Assembly (NCBI GenBank): GCA_947643715.1
Contig: CANRXB010000010.1
Span: 1 to 64,000, forward strand
From: an uncultured bacterium
GTDB lineage: Bacteria > Bacillota > Clostridia > Oscillospirales > Oscillospiraceae
Reading direction: 5' to 3'
Length of the DNA: 64,000 nt
In this document: in pieces, positions 56,953-64,000 of the stretch
How the letters are laid out: every line of letters starts with the position of its first letter
Position numbering within the stretch: the stretch's first letter is position 1
Translations under genes and position numbers: made by a program
Notes under the pieces: generated by a model
The model's input: the letters and a program-made list of their open reading frames with translations, nothing else
Told to the model about the DNA's origin: nothing
Database searches by the model: none

Positions 56953-58320
56953 TTATCCCCCTGCCATGCCAACCCGAACGGCTTTCATCGCGATGGCGCA
57001 TTCCAGCCGCTTGCGCTGCATATCGCACCCGAAACGGTTCGGTTTTTTGATATCCCCATTGACGAGCAGGTTAGACGCAGAACATCCGCCGCTACAATAG
57101 AACCTGGCCCAACAATCCTTACAGTCAGGACGGGTATAGATGTTCAGCCCGGCAAATCGCCTGGAAAGCTCCATATCGAAAGTTCCATCGTAGAGGTTCC
57201 CTAGCTTGTACTCCTCATTGCCCACGAACTGGTGGCAGGGATAGATATCCCCTTCTGGAGTGATCGCTACATATTCGCAGCCAGCACCACAGCCCCGCAT
57301 CCGTTTGATCACGCAGGGACCTTGGGACAGATCGACATTGAAATGGAAAAAGTTCACATCGTCTCGTTCCAAAAGCGCCGCCGCGAGGCGTTCATACTCT
57401 TCCAGGATACCAGGCAGGTCCTCTTCCCGGAACGCATAGCCACATTCAGGGCTGCCCACCACTGGTTCCACCGACACATGCCGGAAGCCTTGGTCAGCGA
57501 TATGGATCACATCGGCGGCGAAATCAGGGTTGTAGCGCGTGAAGGTGCCCCGAAGATAGTAATCCTTCTCTCCCCTGCCCGCCACTAGCTTCTGGAATCT
57601 TGGTAGGATCACGTCATAGCTGCCGCCTCCACTCACTGTCTTGCGCATCCGGTCGTTGACCTCCGGCCTTCCATCCAATGACAGCACTACGTTGGACATC
57701 TCACGATCGATATATTCGATGTTCTCATCGTCCAAAAGCACGCCGTTGGTGGTGATCGTGAAGCGGAAGTTCTTCCCATGCTGCTTCTCGATAGAGCGGG
57801 CGTATCCTATGGTAGCTTTCACAGTCTCCATGGCCATCAGCGGTTCGCCGCCAAAGAAATCCACCTCGATGTTCCGGCGCGCTCCAGAGCGCTGGATCAC
57901 GAAATCGATGGCTTTTTTCGCCGTCTCTATATCCATAGTCATCCGGCGTCCGGTGCCAAAATCACCGGTGGACGCGAAACAGTACTGGCACCTCAGATTA
58001 CAGTCATGGGACACATGGAGGCACAGAGCCTTGATCGGCGCCTCCTGCTGCATCAGCACGGCTGCGGCAGGGTCGATGTAGTCGTCTTCGGTAAAAAGCA
58101 GACCATCCCGCTGGAGCCCCAGCAGTTCTGCCCACGCCTCGTCCACCACTGCCGGCGTATATTGAGGCAGTTTGCTATAGACGATCTGAGGACATGTGTC
58201 TGTTAGAGGCTCATTCAGCAGAGATAAGACATCGTAAGCGGTCTTGTCCAACACATGGACAGCGCCGCTATTGACATCCACTGCTATTGGGACCCCTAGG
58301 CAAATAAACGTGTGGACCAT
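56953..58320 (-). CDS. scfB: SCIFF peptide maturase (radical SAM-SPASM thioether-forming enzyme)
   Basis: Radical SAM enzyme that installs Cys-to-Thr thioether bonds in SCIFF-type ranthipeptides. The 455 residues start MVHTFICLGVPIAVDVNSGA, a PqqD-like recognition domain, then the radical SAM core with SHDCNLRCQYCFA (CxxxCxxC cluster) and the GGEPLM SAM motif, and a SPASM domain with the Cys series CGAGC, PCHQF, CKDCW and CSGGC for two auxiliary clusters. AGGAGGAGG is 10 bases before the ATG; an upstream frame extends to 58374 over the attenuator. The precursor gene lies just upstream. Confidence 0.95.
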   Translation of the reverse strand: MVHTFICLGVPIAVDVNSGAVHVLDKTAYDVLSLLNEPLTDTCPQIVYSKLPQYTPAVVDEAWAELLGLQRDGLLFTEDDYIDPAAAVLMQQEAPIKALCLHVSHDCNLRCQYCFASTGDFGTGRRMTMDIETAKKAIDFVIQRSGARRNIEVDFFGGEPLMAMETVKATIGYARSIEKQHGKNFRFTITTNGVLLDDENIEYIDREMSNVVLSLDGRPEVNDRMRKTVSGGGSYDVILPRFQKLVAGRGEKDYYLRGTFTRYNPDFAADVIHIADQGFRHVSVEPVVGSPECGYAFREEDLPGILEEYERLAAALLERDDVNFFHFNVDLSQGPCVIKRMRGCGAGCEYVAITPEGDIYPCHQFVGNEEYKLGNLYDGTFDMELSRRFAGLNIYTRPDCKDCWARFYCSGGCSASNLLVNGDIKKPNRFGCDMQRKRLECAIAMKAVRVGMAGG

Positions 58321-58351
58321 CTTTGGCCGACCTCCTCCTTTGGCGCGCAGA

Positions 58352-58379
58352 AAAAGGGTGGGACGGATCCCCACCCTTT
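58352..58379 (-). terminator. Attenuator between scfA and scfB
   Basis: Minus strand AAAGGGTGGG-GATCCGT-CCCACCCTTT followed by TTC. It likely stops most transcripts after the precursor gene, so that peptide outnumbers enzyme. Confidence 0.75.
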
Positions 58380-58395
58380 CATGCGCTTTGATGGA

Positions 58396-58539
58396 TCATC
58401 GATCGTTCTCACACTTTTGGTTGGCTACAGTACAAGAGGTCTTGCAGGCAGACTGGCAAGAGGTCTGGCACTCACCGCAACCGCCGTGAGCCGCGCTCTG
58501 CTTCAGCGTAGCGCCATTGAGCGTCTGGATGTGGGTCAT
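58396..58539 (-). CDS. scfA: SCIFF ranthipeptide precursor (six cysteines in forty-five residues)
   Basis: A 47-residue precursor starting MTHIQTLNGATLKQSAAHGG, with six cysteines at 21, 24, 28, 32, 36 and 43, and threonines at 26, 34 and 37 as possible thioether partners. This is the conserved Clostridial SCIFF family, nearly always beside its radical SAM-SPASM maturase, as here. GGAGGGAGAT precedes the ATG. The mature function is not settled; population-density signalling has been proposed for ranthipeptides. Confidence 0.95.
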   Translation of the reverse strand: MTHIQTLNGATLKQSAAHGGCGECQTSCQSACKTSCTVANQKCENDR

Positions 58540-58572
58540 GGGTATCTCCCTCCAATTCAATGATTTCATCTT

Positions 58573-58601
58573 ATTATATCATGCGTTCGAAAGAAATTCA
58601 A
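58573..58601 (-). promoter_or_regulatory. Promoter of scfA-scfB
   Basis: Minus strand TTGAAT (58596-58601), 17-base spacer, TATAAT (58573-58578), 34 bases before the scfA start. It is divergent from the cotJ genes. Confidence 0.75.
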
Positions 58602-58705
58602 TACAATTATTTTTTTCGACATTTCCCGTGGCACCGGGCAGCGGGGCAGCATAAGCTGGATTGACAGCGTTAAGCTGTCGAACTTTGATCGAAGGAGGGG
58701 TCCGC

Positions 58706-59167
58706 TTGAACCCTGATACCGGAATCACGAACCGCCCCTGCGCGGACACATGTGGGACATTGCCCGGCTGCGCGCCGCTGGCGGTGCCGTATGTGCCTTT
58801 CCAGCAAGAGGGCAGTCAAAAATATGATCAGACCAACGCTTTGGCCAACGGGACCATCTTCCCTGCCCTGAACCTTCCCTTCCACCTGAAGGTCAACGCC
58901 GCCGAGCTGCCCACGAGCCATTCGACCCAGCTCCAAGCGCTGTTGTTCGTGGTCACTGAGCTGGGGCTGTACCTGGACACCCACCAGGACGACACAGAGG
59001 CATTCAAGCTGTTCCAGCAATACACGGAGATGGCCAGGGAGGCAAAAAAGCGCTACGAAGAGATGCACGGCCCACTCACCAAACTGAGCGCTGGTCAAGA
59101 TAAGACCTACCGTTGGCTGGACGATCCCTGGCCCTGGGAATTCAATGGGAACGGAGGGGACAAATAA
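58706..59167 (+). CDS. Spore coat CotJA-CotJB fusion protein
   Basis: Residues 1-70 correspond to CotJA (proline- and cysteine-containing, with CAPLAVPYVPFQ), residues 70-153 to CotJB (LQALLFVVTELGLYLDTHQD, then a helical KLFQQYTEMAREAKKRYEEM and the terminal WPWEF). In most spore-formers these are two genes followed by cotJC. Here they are one frame. Start is a TTG 7 bases after AGGAGG; no ATG fits. The stop overlaps the ATG of cotJC. CotJ proteins are part of the spore coat or inner coat layers. Confidence 0.85.
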   Translation: MNPDTGITNRPCADTCGTLPGCAPLAVPYVPFQQEGSQKYDQTNALANGTIFPALNLPFHLKVNAAELPTSHSTQLQALLFVVTELGLYLDTHQDDTEAFKLFQQYTEMAREAKKRYEEMHGPLTKLSAGQDKTYRWLDDPWPWEFNGNGGDK

Positions 59168-59259
59168 TGTTCGTTTATGAAAAGAAGCTGCAGTATCCCG
59201 TCCGGATCAAGAATACCAACCCCAAGCTGGCAGCAGTCATAATCTCCCAGTACGGAGGT
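59167..59259 (+). pseudogene. cotJC: cotJC, 5' part (manganese-catalase-like coat protein), cut after 31 codons
   Basis: Begins MFVYEKKLQYPVRIKNTNPK, followed by LAAVIISQYGG, the standard CotJC N-terminus, then leaves the family at the GGAGG core (59254-59258), continuing into element DNA with a stop about 23 codons later. The ATG overlaps the cotJA-cotJB stop region. The missing continuation is found at 63,218. In this orientation no functional CotJC can be made. Confidence 0.92.
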
Positions 59260-59431
59260 CTTTACATCGTCAGCCTATCATGCCGGAGCCAACGCTCCCG
59301 ACCTTGCGCATCCGGCCCGGATCGATGAGCAAACGCGTCAGCATCGCTGGCAGGGCGGGGACCGCTCCTCTTTTACCGGTCGTTTCATCGGATACACCTT
59401 CTATTTTTGGGGCAAACTGGCCAGGAGGTGA
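59255..59431 (+). other. 3' part of an element reading frame cut by the left junction
   Basis: From the left core, the +1 frame reads 58 codons without a start, with AYHAGANAPDLAHPARIDEQ and later FTGRFIGYTFYFWGKLARR, then TGA inside the ribosome site of the next gene. Composition looks coding. The missing start lies at the right end: the ATG at 63216-63218 would join it in frame in a circular form, giving 59 residues. No family recognised. Confidence 0.55.
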
Positions 59432-59433
59432 TC

Positions 59434-59601
59434 ATGATGAACGATATGCCCATAGGGCTGATGATGACGCTGGCCGAGAACGAGCAGGCCATGCGCCGCT
59501 TCGCTGCGCTCTCAGAGCAGGAGCGAGGCCAAGTGGTAGCGAAAGCCAGCCAAGCCACTTCCCGGGCCGAGATGAAAGCTATCGTCCGGGGACTCGATTG
59601 A
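59434..59601 (+). CDS. Small conserved hypothetical protein (55 residues)
   Basis: Starts MMNDMPIGLMMTLAENEQAM with AGGAGGTGATC at ideal spacing; the second half is helical (FAALSEQERGQVVAKASQ), ending in a MKAIVRGLD motif. It resembles short helical proteins common in Clostridia, but I cannot name a function. It is probably cotranscribed with the next small gene. An alternative start is the second ATG (59437). Confidence 0.7.
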   Translation: MMNDMPIGLMMTLAENEQAMRRFAALSEQERGQVVAKASQATSRAEMKAIVRGLD

Positions 59602-59614
59602 GGGGGCGACCGGT

Positions 59615-59812
59615 ATGGCGAAGAAAGGAATGGCCCGGCCTGACCGGACCCACACCCGTCCCCGGAACGAGGTCCCGGCGGTCCCCGAGATCCAGGGGAA
59701 AGCCAAGCACACCAAGCAGCCCGCTCGGCCCATCATCGCTGGGACCGCTGGGCCGGAGCTGAAGGTCTACCACGCTCAGCCCCACTCCACAGATCATAAC
59801 GATCGGACATGA
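59615..59812 (+). CDS. Small basic hypothetical protein (65 residues)
   Basis: A proline-, lysine- and arginine-rich protein (MAKKGMARPDRTHTRPRNEV, then PEIQGKAKHTKQPARPIIAGT), likely disordered. It starts 13 bases after the 55-residue gene with a GGGGGCG ribosome site and is followed by a clear terminator. Function unknown; the charge suggests nucleic-acid or wall contact, which is a guess. Confidence 0.65.
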   Translation: MAKKGMARPDRTHTRPRNEVPAVPEIQGKAKHTKQPARPIIAGTAGPELKVYHAQPHSTDHNDRT

Positions 59813-59816
59813 CCTG

Positions 59817-59845
59817 CCGCCCCGGAGCCGGGGCGGTCTTTTTTG
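59817..59845 (+). terminator. Terminator after the two small element genes
   Basis: CCGCCCCGG-AG-CCGGGGCGG followed by TCTTTTTTG. Confidence 0.88.
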
Positions 59846-59881
59846 TCCCCATCTGTCCCCGCGCTCTGCCATCTCTTGGCC

Positions 59882-59983
59882 TTAGTTCCACTTCACTATG
59901 GTCTGGATGCCGCCACGGAACATAAGTTCCCCAGAAAGAGCCCCCTTGATGACCGTATCTTTGCGGCGATCCTCTCTGTTCAT
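59882..59983 (-). CDS. Possible 33-residue protein coupled to the upstream gene
   Basis: Starts MNREDRRKDTVIKGALSGEL with its ATG overlapping the stop of the 91-residue gene (ATGA), ending in IQTIVKWN. The coupling and the charged start make it plausible, but no family is known to me. Confidence 0.4.
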   Translation of the reverse strand: MNREDRRKDTVIKGALSGELMFRGGIQTIVKWN

Positions 59984-60255
59984 CCGCCCTCGATGGCCCT
60001 CCCGACCTGCTGAGGACTTCTTTTCAGCCGGAAAAGGCACTGCTCCCACTGCTCTTCTGATAAGCATCTTCCCATTTTGCCCTCCTTCATTGGATCGAAC
60101 TTGGCCTTTCCCTCGAACAAGGCATTGAGATATGTACACCTAATCCATGTGGCCAACTCCTGTTTCTGCACTGGGTCCAGGTCGGCAGTGTCCACCAGGC
60201 GGTCGCCTACATGGACATAGCCGACCGCCTTAATCTTCTGCTCTTTGCGCGGCAT
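59980..60255 (-). CDS. Hypothetical protein (91 residues) in the element
   Basis: Starts MPRKEQKIKAVGYVHVGDRL; the middle DLDPVQKQELATWIRCTYLN and LFEGKAKFD resembles small conserved proteins of Firmicute mobile elements. The AAGGGAGTGA ribosome site favours this ATG; the frame stays open to 60405 upstream. It is transcribed against the recombinase. Function unknown. Confidence 0.6.
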   Translation of the reverse strand: MPRKEQKIKAVGYVHVGDRLVDTADLDPVQKQELATWIRCTYLNALFEGKAKFDPMKEGKMGRCLSEEQWEQCLFRLKRSPQQVGRAIEGG

Positions 60256-60398
60256 CAGGCACTCACTCCCTTCCGCACATCCTATTCCCGGGCAAGGTCG
60301 TCCTATCTCATCGGCAGCCCCAAACACCGCGGCAACACGGCGAGGCCGGGACGTCCGGATAGCCGTGCGCTCATCTCCTTTATCACGGGTTTTTCTCA

Positions 60399-60427
60399 TT
60401 GACAAATGGGGGAACCTGTTTTAAGAT
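60399..60427 (+). promoter_or_regulatory. Promoter of the coiled-coil gene
   Basis: TTGACA (60399-60404), 17-base spacer, TAAGAT (60422-60427). The leader of about 220 bases to the coiled-coil start shows no gene. The rest of 60256-60656 also shows none. Confidence 0.6.
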
Positions 60428-60656
60428 GGAAATGATACCATAGGGTTCTGCCATGGATCGTCAAGCATATGTTTTGCAGCTCAGTCAGCCTATCGCGCCA
60501 AGGTCATACCGACGGAGGAACGCAGTGTCAAGATCACGATATATCCCCTCTCCCCTTTCCTCTGGACCCGTCCCAGCGATCGTATCCCATCGCGCTACTG
60601 TGGCCGTATATCCCTGATCGAACACCTTCCCTCTGCCGATCAGAAAGGAGTTCCCC

Positions 60657-61217
60657 ATGAGCACCGAAGAAAAGATCTTAGCGATACTTGAAAAGCACAG
60701 TGAGATGTTCGGACAGATACAGCAGGATATCTCTGGCCTGAAGGGCGACTTCTCCAGCATGCAGATGGATATCTTAGGTATAAAATGTGACATCTCCAGT
60801 ATGCAGGACGATATCTCCGGCTTGAAAGTGGACGTCTCTGGCTTGAAGCAAGATGTCGCTGATTTGAAGGAAGATGTCTCCGGTATGCAGGACGATATCT
60901 CCGGCTTGAAGGTGGACGTCTCTGACTTGAAGCAAGATGTGGCCGGTTTGAAGGAAGATGTCTCCGATATGCAGGTGGATATCGCCGGGTTGAAGGGTGA
61001 TTTCTCCGACCTGCGCCAGACAGTCACCCGAGTGGCGATCACCCAAGAGAACGTGGTGATCCCACAGATCAAGCTGTTGGCCGAGGGACATGACATGCTC
61101 TTGCAGACGCTGGCCCACAAGGAACATGTAGCCACGCTGGAGGACGACGTAGACCTTCTGAAGTCTGTTGTCAAGACCATGTCCCAGCGGATAACGGCCC
61201 TGGAAAAAGCACAGTGA
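60657..61217 (+). CDS. Heptad-repeat coiled-coil protein (186 residues)
   Basis: After an N-terminal MSTEEKILAILEKHSEMFGQ, residues about 24-122 form roughly 13 seven-residue units of the type D-[IV]-S-x-L-K-x, an almost continuous coiled coil, followed by a second helical part (LEDDVDLLKSVVKTMSQRI). At DNA level an 84-bp unit is tandemly duplicated (60819-60902 and 60903-60986). There is no membrane segment or enzymatic motif. AAAGGAG precedes the ATG. It may be a structural or scaffold protein of the element. Confidence 0.75.
   Translation: MSTEEKILAILEKHSEMFGQIQQDISGLKGDFSSMQMDILGIKCDISSMQDDISGLKVDVSGLKQDVADLKEDVSGMQDDISGLKVDVSDLKQDVAGLKEDVSDMQVDIAGLKGDFSDLRQTVTRVAITQENVVIPQIKLLAEGHDMLLQTLAHKEHVATLEDDVDLLKSVVKTMSQRITALEKAQ
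60819..60986 (+). repeat. 84-bp tandem duplication encoding four heptads
   Basis: Two copies (starting GGCTTGAAAGTGGACGTC and GGCTTGAAGGTGGACGTC) differ at few positions, showing expansion of the coiled coil by unequal exchange. Confidence 0.8.
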
Positions 61218-61405
61218 ACGAACCGGACACCGCAGACCCGCGAACCGACGTCCCATGACCCGGTCGGTCGGGGAACGTTCGGAGCCGACAAAGGAAGGAG
61301 TATAGACACCGTCACCAGATCCAAATGCAGCCTGTTCTATGATCTATCGATTTGAAAATGCTTTTGATCGTGTTCGTTGAATCCCCCACCAGGAAGGAGT
61401 TCCCT

Positions 61406-61495
61406 ATGAACACCGAAGAAAAGATCTTAGAGACGCTGGGAATATGTGGTGACGCGGCACGATGCGGCCACTCCGATTTGAAGGTGCTGCCATGA
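61406..61495 (+). pseudogene. Truncated copy of the coiled-coil gene start (29 codons)
   Basis: The ribosome site and first codons (AGGAGTTCCC, then MNTEEKILETLGI) repeat those of the gene at 60657, but the frame ends after 29 codons without any heptad. It may now serve as a coupling leader for the next gene, whose ATG overlaps its stop. Confidence 0.6.
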
Positions 61496-61662
61496 CGACG
61501 ACGATCATGGACGAATTCATCCTCCCGACCCTCATTCGCTACATAGACCATTACCACTGGAGCTTCAATATCGCTATGCGGCTCATCAACATGTATCATG
61601 GCACCGGATACACCGAAAAAGAGCTGAAAGCGCTTTACCGGAAGTCACAAAAGATATCCTGA
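61492..61662 (+). CDS. Small conserved element protein (56 residues)
   Basis: Starts MTTTIMDEFILPTLIRYIDH with an aromatic-rich middle (YHWSFNIAMRLINMYHGTGY), ending TEKELKALYRKSQ. It resembles short proteins found upstream of recombinases in Clostridial elements. Function unknown. Its ATG overlaps the stop of the 29-codon frame, and it lies 62 bases before the recombinase. Confidence 0.65.
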   Translation: MTTTIMDEFILPTLIRYIDHYHWSFNIAMRLINMYHGTGYTEKELKALYRKSQKIS

Positions 61663-61668
61663 TCCAAC

Positions 61669-61698
61669 ACAGCTCCGCAGTTATCTGCGGAGCTGTCA
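61669..61698 (+). terminator. Hairpin before the recombinase
   Basis: ACAGCTCCGCAG-TTAT-CTGCGGAGCTGT, a 12-bp perfect stem followed by CATATAT. It is a weak terminator or regulator limiting recombinase expression. Confidence 0.55.
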
Positions 61699-61723
61699 TA
61701 TATCATCCGAGGAGGCGTGGTCC

Positions 61724-63193
61724 ATGTCCACCCCTGCCCTGCCCCGCTGCGCCGCGGCTTACGTGCGCGTTTCCACCGACGATCAGACGGAGCTTTCCCC
61801 CGATTCCCAGTTGGAAGAGATCCGCAAGTACGCTCAGCGGGAGGGGCTGTGCCTCCTGGACGGACACATCTATATCGACGCGGGGATCTCCGGCAAAAAG
61901 GCGGACCGCCGCCCCGCGTTCATGCGGATGATCGCCCAGGCCAAAGAGGAGAACTGTCCTTTCTCGGTCATCCTCCTTTGGAAATACAGCCGCTTCGCCC
62001 GCAACCAGGAGGAGAGCATCTTTTATAAATCCATCCTCCGCTCCAAATGCGGCATAGAGGTGGTCAGCGTCACCGAACCTTTGCTCGCGGGTCCTTTCGG
62101 CAGCCTGATCGAGCGCATCATCGAGTGGATGGACGAGTTCTACTCTATCCGGCTCAGCCAGGAGGTCAAACGCTCCATGACGGTGAACGCCCAGCGGGGC
62201 AAGCTGCAGGCATCCCCCTCTTTCGGTTACTGCGCCAATGGTGGCAAGCTCATCCCCTTGTCAGAGGAGGCCGCTCATGTCCGCCATATCTTCGACAGCT
62301 TCGTGGCCGGAGCCGGCCTGTGGAACATCGCCAAGGAACTCAACGACCTGGGCGTGCGCACTCACCGGGGCAATCCCTTCGAGAACCGCACCATCGAGTA
62401 CATCCTCCGCAACCCAGTCTATATCGGCAAGCTCCGATGGAACCCTAACGGCCGCAGCCAACGGGATTTCTTCGATGAGAACATCATCATAGCCGACGGC
62501 GGACACGAGCCTCTCGTCCCCCAGGAGCTGTGGGATGCGGCGCAGGACCGCATGGACCGCATAAAGGCGCAGTTCGGCCATAAGGCCCGCCCTTCCTACG
62601 AACTGAAGCATTGGCTGTCCGGACTGGTGCGCTGCTCCGCCTGTGGTGGGACGCTGATCTACGCCAAACCCTATTATTTCAAATGCAACAACTATATCCG
62701 GGCACGCTGCCCCCACTCCCAACACATCAAAGCAGATCTGCTGGCCGAAAGCGTCATCACAAAACTGTTCGAGGACGCTCTCGGCTCTGTCCCCATCGTC
62801 CCCATCGCCCATGAAGTGACATATACATCAGCTCCAGGCGGCGATACGACCAAGCTGGAGGCCAAACTCAAACAGCTCCACAAGAAACAGGAACGTCTCC
62901 AGGAAGCATATCTCTCCGGTGTCCTGAATCTTGAAGACCTCGCAAAAGCGAAGAAGTCGCTGGACCACGACATCCTCCAGACCAAAGAGCACCTCGAGGC
63001 CCGGCGGATCGATCAGGACGGCAATTCCGCCGCCCCGGCCCTGCACTCTCCTATCGCAGCGGCGCTCCAGACCCTTTGCTCTTCTGATGCCACGACCGAG
63101 GAAAAGAACCTCGCCGCCCGGTCCATCCTGGAGTCCTGCGTGTTCGACAAAGCCTCCTCTACCCTTTCGGTCACATACCGGATCGCGCTGTGA
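61724..63193 (+). CDS. Large serine recombinase
   Basis: A 489-residue site-specific recombinase. The N-terminal resolvase domain has catalytic Ser17 in AAYVRVSTDDQTELSPDSQL and the Arg residues of WKYSRFARN. It is followed by a recombinase domain (FGYCANGGKLIPLSEEAAHV), a zinc ribbon (VRCSACGGTLIYAKPYYF, then Cys in KCNNY and ARCPHS) and a coiled coil of about 40 residues. This is the SpoIVCA/phage-integrase layout. GGAGG precedes the ATG. It ends 25 bases before the right core, as usual for integrases near their att site. Confidence 0.96.
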   Translation: MSTPALPRCAAAYVRVSTDDQTELSPDSQLEEIRKYAQREGLCLLDGHIYIDAGISGKKADRRPAFMRMIAQAKEENCPFSVILLWKYSRFARNQEESIFYKSILRSKCGIEVVSVTEPLLAGPFGSLIERIIEWMDEFYSIRLSQEVKRSMTVNAQRGKLQASPSFGYCANGGKLIPLSEEAAHVRHIFDSFVAGAGLWNIAKELNDLGVRTHRGNPFENRTIEYILRNPVYIGKLRWNPNGRSQRDFFDENIIIADGGHEPLVPQELWDAAQDRMDRIKAQFGHKARPSYELKHWLSGLVRCSACGGTLIYAKPYYFKCNNYIRARCPHSQHIKADLLAESVITKLFEDALGSVPIVPIAHEVTYTSAPGGDTTKLEAKLKQLHKKQERLQEAYLSGVLNLEDLAKAKKSLDHDILQTKEHLEARRIDQDGNSAAPALHSPIAAALQTLCSSDATTEEKNLAARSILESCVFDKASSTLSVTYRIAL

Positions 63194-63217
63194 CTGGATC
63201 ATAGTCTATCGCAGCAT

Positions 63218-63343
63218 GGAGGCCCCGATGGTGAACTGGGCGCGTCACTGCGCTATCTCTCTCAGCGTTACGCGATGCCCTATCCTGAGCTGAAGGGACT
63301 GCTCACCGACATCGGTACCGAAGAATCCGTACCAAAAGCTTAG
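63218..63343 (+). pseudogene. cotJC: cotJC, middle part, stopping after GTEE
   Basis: From the right core the frame reads PDGELGASLRYLSQRYAMPY followed by PELKGLLTDIGTEE, a near-perfect CotJC middle segment. It then gives SVPKA and a stop where family members continue with the metal-binding LGHLEM-type sequence. Joined with the 5' part it gives about 70 residues of an expected 190. The C-terminal two thirds are absent from the window. Confidence 0.9.
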
Positions 63344-63382
63344 AGACGATCTTATGCCGTCTCCCACGTCTGGGCACAGATG

Positions 63383-63414
63383 AAAGCGCCCCGGCACACC
63401 TTGGCCGGAGCGCT
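63383..63414 (-). terminator. Terminator of the 53-residue gene
   Basis: Minus strand AGCGCTCCGGC pairs with GCCGGGGCGCT (one G-T) around CAAGGTGT, followed by TTC. Confidence 0.65.
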
Positions 63415-63419
63415 TCCAT

Positions 63420-63581
63420 CTATGTCCTCTCTTCTTCTGACGCGGCGACGAGTCCTGCCTTCGCCCGAGACACGACCCGCTCGAGTATCCTTTGTATCTG
63501 TTCAGGCGTCGTATCACGAAAATAATCATCATGGATCCGTATCTTCGTGTTCTTGATCGTCCGCTCCAGAACGACAGCCAT
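63420..63581 (-). CDS. Small hypothetical protein (53 residues)
   Basis: Starts MAVVLERTIKNTKIRIHDDY, then TPEQIQRILERVVSRAK. GAGGTGATC lies 5 bases before the ATG. It resembles short IKINDDY-type proteins of Clostridial mobile elements. Its position directly after the second break of cotJC suggests it belongs to another element remnant. Confidence 0.6.
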   Translation of the reverse strand: MAVVLERTIKNTKIRIHDDYFRDTTPEQIQRILERVVSRAKAGLVAASEEERT

Positions 63582-63678
63582 TGCAGATCACCTCGTCCAT
63601 ATATCTATGGACCGTTCCATGGATCGTTTCCAGCTTTCGTTCCCCATGTCTCGTTACGATCCGACCATCCTGCATGGA

Positions 63679-63713
63679 ACGCCCTGCCGCCTCTCATATG
63701 GGCAGCAGGGCGT
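63679..63713 (-). terminator. Terminator of sigG
   Basis: Minus strand ACGCCCTGC pairs with GCAGGGCGT around about 17 bases, immediately after the sigG stop. The T-run is weak. Confidence 0.5.
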
Positions 63714-63722
63714 CCTCCCCTT

Positions 63723-64000
63723 TCACAGCTCTTTCCGTATCCGGCTCAGCGCGTTCTTCTCCAATCGCGACACTTGCGCTTGGGAGATCCCGACCTCGGC
63801 CGACACTTCCATCTGGGTCTTTCCCTGGAAAAATCGAAGGGCCAAGATCCGCCGCTCCCGCTCGTCCAGCTTACTGATGGCATCCTCCAAAGCGATGTGT
63901 TCCAGCCACGCTTCGTCGGTGTTCTTCTTGTCCTTCACTTGGTCCATGACGCATACGGTGTCCCCGCTATCAGAATATACCGGCTCGAACAGAGACACAG
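63723..64000 (-). CDS. sigG: RNA polymerase sigma-G factor, C-terminal part (gene runs off the window)
   Basis: The final 92 codons of a sporulation sigma factor. SLFEPVYSDSGDTVCVMDQV and region 4 with LRFFQGKTQMEVSAEVGISQ and AQVSRLEKNA are characteristic of sigma-G (late forespore); sigma-F differs in the segment before the helix-turn-helix. The start lies beyond position 64,000. Confidence 0.9.
   Translation of the reverse strand, partial: VSLFEPVYSDSGDTVCVMDQVKDKKNTDEAWLEHIALEDAISKLDERERRILALRFFQGKTQMEVSAEVGISQAQVSRLEKNALSRIRKEL

Follow-up and report, generated by a model that had tools for sequence, protein, structure and literature searches.

Large serine recombinase elements that divide the spore-coat gene cotJC in Oscillospirales and their probable excision

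The window analysed here, positions 1 to 64,000 of contig CANRXB010000010.1 (C10 below; assembly GCA_947643715.1), comes from an uncultured bacterium of the Oscillospiraceae, and close to its right-hand end the gene for the spore-coat manganese catalase, cotJC, breaks off and resumes on the far side of a small element, here called element A, that encodes a large serine recombinase. Is this cotJC a gene that an insertion has killed, or one that is put together again when it is needed? Comparison with related genomes points to the second answer: element A and its counterparts are probably integrative elements whose excision remakes cotJC at the DNA level. That this remaking is timed to the sporulating mother cell is the most likely form of the answer, less certain than excision itself.

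cotJC in four pieces

Element A is inserted at codons 30-31, inside the coding region of a sporulation gene, and both flanking parts of cotJC are in frame, the first being 90% identical to an intact congener. A short shared core, GGAGG, is present at each end; the two copies lie 3,964 bp apart and, exact to the base, where a first-pass annotation of the sequence had placed them. Joining cotJC at this core gives IISQYGG followed directly by PDGELGA, in frame, as that annotation had predicted for a deletion of the DNA between. The recombinase it had noticed near the right end is there as well, co-directional with cotJC and with three recombinase domain matches (Resolvase 6.5e-26, Recombinase 1.7e-23, Zn-ribbon 7.1e-8). 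Phage structural or packaging genes, said to be missing, were not evident in element A by domain searches or by a PHROG scan of seven open reading frames (ORFs) of the window, the PHROG structural matches falling on the repetitive coiled-coil ORF alone. The likeness drawn to sporulation intervening elements thus stands: a small serine-recombinase element, with precise in-frame ends, in a spore-coat gene.

What did not stand is the view of cotJC as split by one element, since the split by element A is real but is one of three. In this genome a Mn_catalase search (E up to 10) returned four pieces of cotJC and no other copy, so the intact cotJC elsewhere that the first-pass annotation had named as a sign of a dead insertion is absent here. 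Piece 2 leaves cotJC after codon 65 (position 63325), because a second element, B, begins there, still within the interval covered by the first-pass annotation, and continues with five foreign codons (SVPKA) and a stop at 63343. The right counterpart of this junction, GGTACGGAAGAA, starts at C10:67655, beyond the window, and the recombinase ORF of element B is C10:65795-67633. A third insertion, element C, lies at codon 136, also outside the window. Because elements of the A, B2 and C lineages are all present together in this genome, cotJC is in four in-frame pieces, and therefore excising element A alone would not restore it.

A PF07508 search of the same genome gave 14 serine recombinase matches, 3 of them on contig C10; no split sporulation gene was recognised by eye near the 11 others, in the ORFs of eight stretches and with no family search made. 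The cargo of element C includes a response regulator and sensor kinase pair, seen by eye at L025:10090-11830 (C10:68090-69830).

Recurrence of the split and lineages of its recombinases

Related genomes, in which the first-pass annotation had suggested looking for both, carry uninterrupted as well as identically interrupted genes. In a sample of 42 genomes of the genus, the window's own included, 35 have a cotJC match. Of these, 21 show breaks at one or more of the sites described above (from G015 just the last piece was recovered), 12 carry cotJC whole in a single frame, G051 has it whole once a 77-bp overlap of contigs is bridged, and in G008 a contig end truncates it. Reading the contig break of G051 as mixed excised and inserted alleles was rejected, the overlap being exact and no site-C recombinase being found there at E 1e-60. 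An even sample of the order (68 genomes, completeness at least 97% except for the window's own at 96%) yielded 62 with a match. Read by eye, the rows show every piece of a split gene but no intact one in 20, only parts that end near a site in four (G025, G062, G106, G112), an intact plus a split copy in two (G063, G120) and an intact gene in 36, where the matched part holds a single stop in two cases. Forty order genomes were also picked because their best cotJC match was partial, and 38 of them, rearranged ones included, are split near the same sites when read by eye (G145 and G153 are not clear). This recurrence bears on whether the breaks are artefacts of assembly, which we regard as extremely unlikely: the assembly of the window's genome consists of 93 contigs and places piece 4 on a different one, but the same breaks occur in the one-contig genomes G225, G179 and G429, and in G218 and G394 four pieces follow in order on one strand of a single contig.

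The junctions themselves are uniform. Left and right sides, placed by protein alignment, were compared for 15 pairs at site A (from 15 genomes), 26 at site B and 18 at site C, the last two counts omitting genomes with only one side in hand, and all 59 pairs keep one codon phase at the junction. When joined automatically at the longest core, the pairs restore GGPxGE at site A in 14 of 15, GTEEL at site B in 23 of 26 and AAEQKAR at site C in 17 of 18. The exceptions, in which this join breaks down or puts the core in the wrong place, are G218 at both A and B, G328 and G394 at B, and G053 at C; for G328, G053 and G218 at A, another placing of the core in the codon alignment restores the motif. 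Cores of a few bases are typical, GGNGG for site A, GGTAC for B1 and CAGA for C, each with some variation, and the ends of site-B1 elements show matching inverted arms, clearest in G011 (by eye). Several rows of the order sample show a stop within the match, which in G073 and G379 lies on the element side of the junction.

The site-A recombinases lead to the same gene. From a named collection of 84,980 species genomes, at least 554 relatives of the site-A set were confirmed and 80 kept, and in 64 of the 80 the recombinase ends no more than 127 bp from a cotJC piece broken at about codon 31, adjoining the right piece in 36 and the left in 28. Isolates among the 64 include Oscillibacter ruminantium GH1, Pseudoflavonifractor gallinarum, P. 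phocaeensis, Mobilitalea sibirica and Hominifimenecus microfluidus. The other 16 comprise two that still have a cotJC piece (L192, L166), two at a contig edge (L146, L164) and 12 without. Because of this recurrence, together with the single codon phase of the 15 site-A pairs, a chance origin of the arrangement in the window is very unlikely. Six of the 80 relatives sit by eye in a gene other than cotJC, in a TQWGS...EILR stretch, with the right part at L198, L209, L221 and L223 and apparently the preceding part at L205 and L214.

By their placement in a tree, the insertion places have each their own large serine recombinase lineage: A at codons 30-31, B1 at codons 62-63, B2 at codon 65 and C at codon 136. 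In a quick maximum-likelihood tree of 71 rows (16 A, 27 B, 18 C and 10 other recombinases of the window's genome), the site labels change 5 times, compared with a mean of 37.0 after shuffling, and none of 200 shuffles gave so low a number. Site-A recombinases form one side of a branch (SH-aLRT 99), site-B recombinases two lineages, B1 (22 rows, support 91) and B2 (4 rows, support 100), and the 18 site-C rows a clade with one other recombinase of the window's genome; one row labelled B, L025_6244, is the sigG-associated recombinase described below, and G394 yielded no site-B recombinase. The site-C lineage scores above 1,000 bits in the split genomes G053 and G005, and reaches no more than 334 bits in any of the 12 intact genomes that were searched. 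Matches among phage records numbered 2 for the site-A recombinase (E 1e-40) and 17 for B2 (E 1e-60), all below 60% identity. In G011 the B1 recombinase ORF (L036:4980-7181) continues as a DNA alkylation repair domain; a 6-O-methylguanine methyltransferase domain and an M56 peptidase are encoded in the same element.

The sites also share a relation to the enzyme. CotJC residues E35, E65/H68 and E136 align with positions of the solved manganese catalase 1jku whose residues we take to be metal ligands, and every integration site is at, or within 4 codons of, one of them. The attachment (att) stretches are conserved above average but rank 54 to 238 of 583 windows in 11 intact genes; since they are not the most conserved DNA of cotJC, conservation was set aside as a cause of targeting that is weak at best.

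Excision, its rivals and the genes around the junctions

We propose that large serine recombinase elements of several lineages favour cotJC as a target for integration, each lineage entering at its own stretch of codons. The element's own recombinase would recombine the left and right attachment sites (attL and attR), excision would rejoin the reading frame, perhaps with a small conserved divergent ORF as directionality factor, and an intact cotJC would be re-formed in the DNA whenever CotJC is required, the sporulating mother cell being the most probable setting. The cotJ operon is under sigE. It is because of this role of cotJC, and of the precedents skin, gin, SPbeta and yin, that we infer mother-cell timing.

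If the insertions were instead ordinary phage or element insertions that had inactivated a dispensable coat gene, the split copies would be relics still awaiting decay. Redundancy among coat catalases is possible (PMC11222575), and some viral contigs carry these recombinases beside cotJC pieces, one viral metagenomic contig (L225, the same as L319) holding codons 29-63 between a site-A and a site-B1 recombinase; the sites are therefore used by predicted prophages. The split copies, however, look constrained. Of the 21 split genus genomes, 20 were counted (all but G016), and their aligned cotJC codons contain no stop. By simple Nei-Gojobori counts, in which the synonymous rate dS is saturated in many pairs, the ratio of nonsynonymous to synonymous rates (dN/dS) within a six-species B1 clade (G001, G006, G010, G011, G018, G020) is 0.000-0.031 over codons 2-61 and 0.000-0.042 over codons 66-198, at cotJC dS of up to about 2.7 and with no stops. 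Two site-C groups give 0.000-0.084 where dS is computable, pairs across different B1 clades up to 0.151 and, for comparison, six intact genomes 0.020-0.335. Between G006 and G011, cotJC differs by 27 synonymous and 0 nonsynonymous changes over 193 codons (P=1.4e-17 under neutrality), and the B1 element is collinear at 91% over 7,868 bp; the left parts of the G001 and G020 elements agree at 75% over 9,437 bp, and more homologous blocks link G006, G010, G011, G018 and G020. Because the element stretches are homologous and largely collinear, the B1 insertion most likely predates the six species, though it may have been transferred among them. These counts point to strong purifying selection on the split copies, which argues against a dead insertion, and we consider the relic explanation improbable.

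Several observations nevertheless weigh against excision and its timing, and some of them favour relics. Our evidence is wholly genomic, and no excision product or read appeared in it. In G133, G360, G192 and G420 the pieces are so ordered or oriented that simple excision could not put the gene right, and in G016, G072, G218, G219 and G423 the right piece loses similarity near codons 175-181, where the usual end is later; rearranged pieces and shortened right pieces are what relics might show. The joins of G218 (GANEL) and G394 (GADEL) differ from the exact site-B consensus. Some site-C elements are recent relative to cotJC divergence: in G014, G015, G022 and G053 the site-C recombinase has dS of 0.34-0.62, against 1.5-2.4 or saturation for cotJC, and because these elements are younger than that divergence, part of the site-C constraint may predate insertion. 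G133 is a one-contig genome of 2.69 Mb in which the cotJC halves (C1:198620 and 873266) share a strand but are separated by about 674 kb, and their order is not one that simple excision could mend.

A further point of the same kind is that sigG is also split in the window's genome. Its 3' part, with a recombinase beside it (C10:64244-65704), is broken at TYGVPM from a second part at C25:884-1168 of this genome (G000). Unless sigG is rejoined as well, the strain should be unable to make sigma-G. In the genus sample sigG is whole in 37 of 42 genomes and split in two, the second being G015, again at TYGVPM (C19:11430-11921 and C4:96298-96579) and again with a serine recombinase beside the 3' part; no full sigG-like match was found among the 42 for G051, G008 and G054. 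A split forespore sigma factor gene is unexpected, because intervening elements are reported to occur almost exclusively in mother-cell genes (PMC6957869). The sigG part and its recombinase lie inside element B (C10:63581-66040), with a small ORF of the B2 type on one side and the B2 recombinase on the other, and may have come there by rearrangement or by a misjoin.

Excision could also be real and have nothing to do with development, the elements leaving and re-entering cotJC stochastically as in active lysogeny, with the constraint coming from the excised sub-population. The yin element of Clostridium botulinum was excised at all time points (PMC10747680). The lineages look mobile: in the C clade, G185, which belongs to another family, is surrounded by recombinases from the family of the window. 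Upstream of the recombinases no sporulation promoter signal emerged: sigE- and sigK-like patterns were no commoner there than in shuffles in all four sets (16 A, 26/27 B, 17/18 C and 62/64 named site-A loci; recombinase upstreams only), an outcome that would fit untimed excision. We think such untimed, reversible lysogeny possible but rather unlikely. Because it shares excision with the reading we prefer and differs from it in timing, our estimates for the two overlap and do not add up to certainty.

Rescue at the level of protein or RNA, through separate synthesis of the pieces or splicing out of the insert as an intron, would fit the fact that the cotJC pieces stay open reading frames. The insert, however, encodes a site-specific DNA recombinase; no Rfam intron family was found in 58500-64000, where one weak sub-threshold small RNA match was the only hit; and the middle piece has an upstream in-frame stop and after it no ATG, GTG or TTG before the core. 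We regard such rescue as scarcely credible.

Excision at the DNA level thus remains our preferred explanation. Its fullest form would be that CotJC is made only after up to three different recombinases, each tied to a single site beside a metal-ligand codon, have excised three elements in the terminal mother cell, the germline copy staying split, exon-like, across a large part of the order and beyond; on that we are evenly divided between belief and doubt.

Since serine integrases need an extra factor to recombine attL with attR (PMC3783163), the small ORFs near the recombinases deserve notice. The small divergent ORF of element A has similar opposite-strand counterparts upstream of the recombinase at 17 other cotJC-inserted loci (L127 and L159 among them apparently being one contig) and on 5 viral contigs; it has no Pfam match in its 141-aa reading and no PHROG match, and it is a candidate recombination directionality factor. 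The 53-aa ORF beyond piece 2 is a candidate directionality factor for B2. The 65-aa ORF of element A matches the site-A loci of G047 (L090) and Oscillibacter ruminantium GH1 (L169), and for the 56-aa ORF no homologue was found outside the own genome among the loci compared (E 1e-3). Directly upstream of the cotJ region, at 56953-58569, lie a SCIFF ranthipeptide gene and its radical SAM maturase.

Table 1. Features of the split cotJC region; positions refer to the window unless a contig is given
Feature	Position	Strand	Remarks
cotJC piece 1	59168..59258	+	codons 1-31 including core; Mn_catalase model positions 1-31
Element A left crossover core GGAGG	59254..59258	+	
Element A body	59259..63217	+	3,964 bp measured core to core
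65-aa ORF of element A	59615..59812	+	75% identical in two site-A loci
Small divergent ORF	59980..60255	-	about 90 aa from ATG; upstream of site-A recombinase
186-aa coiled-coil repeat ORF of element A	60657..61217	+	
56-aa ORF before site-A recombinase	61492..61662	+	
Site-A large serine recombinase, 489 aa	61724..63193	+	phrog_95 integrase 1.2e-102
Element A right crossover core GGAGG	63218..63222	+	
cotJC piece 2	63218..63325	+	codons 30-65; model positions 27-66
Element B left junction GGTACCGAAGAA	63314..63325	+	codons 62-65
Element B start	63326..64000	+	B2 recombinase lineage, about 4.3 kb; continues to C10:67654
53-aa ORF	63420..63581	-	homologues mainly B2-lineage loci, one site-A locus (L155)
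sigG 3' part	63723..64000	-	continues to C10:64217
cotJC piece 3	C10:67643-67879		codons ~62-136
cotJC piece 4	C23:38783-38953		codons ~136-198; near contig end

Comparison with known systems

If our reading is true, what has been an oddity becomes a common mode of gene control in gut Clostridia. With several independent sites, four dedicated recombinase lineages and as many as four pieces, one could ask if the excisions follow an order or are coordinated with one another; several new sets of site-specific recombinases with natural attachment sites would be on offer, and gene calling in one frame would miss the whole cotJC in many genomes. Neither a split cotJC nor multiple insertions in one sporulation gene appears in the titles or abstract beginnings of open-licence papers among the matches listed, a set that leaves subscription papers and bioRxiv mostly outside. 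In a survey of large serine recombinases (PMC10083194), diverse recombinases likewise converge on one conserved coding site, in a prolyl isomerase gene; its main text contains spore, catalase and cotJC 0 times and sporulation once, in a reference title.

In the literature compared here, rearrangements of sporulation genes involve one insertion per gene. This holds for SPbeta in spsM, vfbin in spoVFB, yin in yabG and MMB025 in sigK, which resemble the cotJC elements as mobile DNA in sporulation genes and for which reconstitution by excision has been shown or proposed (PMC10747680, PMC6957869, PMC13141910). The phi027 prophage of C. difficile, a temperate phage, is described as adjacent to a CotJC homologue and not within it (PMC11222575, PMC12122855). 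The gin element in gerE of Bacillus cereus ATCC10987 comes close to element A, with a serine recombinase, no phage genes and a sporulation gene that is rejoined; it has a 9-bp shared core and an additional factor, GirX, named as its directionality factor (PMC5595907). However, gin is 28.6 kb long, has three recombinase genes and is a single insertion whose excision was shown (PMC5595907), whereas the cotJC elements range from 2.3 to 52 kb, come up to three to a gene, and we infer their excision from sequence. The skin elements in sigK of B. subtilis and C. difficile are alike in that a serine recombinase element splits a sporulation gene that excision rejoins (PMC6957869, PMC5025042), but skin is a defective prophage inserted once in the gene for a sigma factor, whereas cotJC encodes an enzyme of the coat and is entered at several sites.

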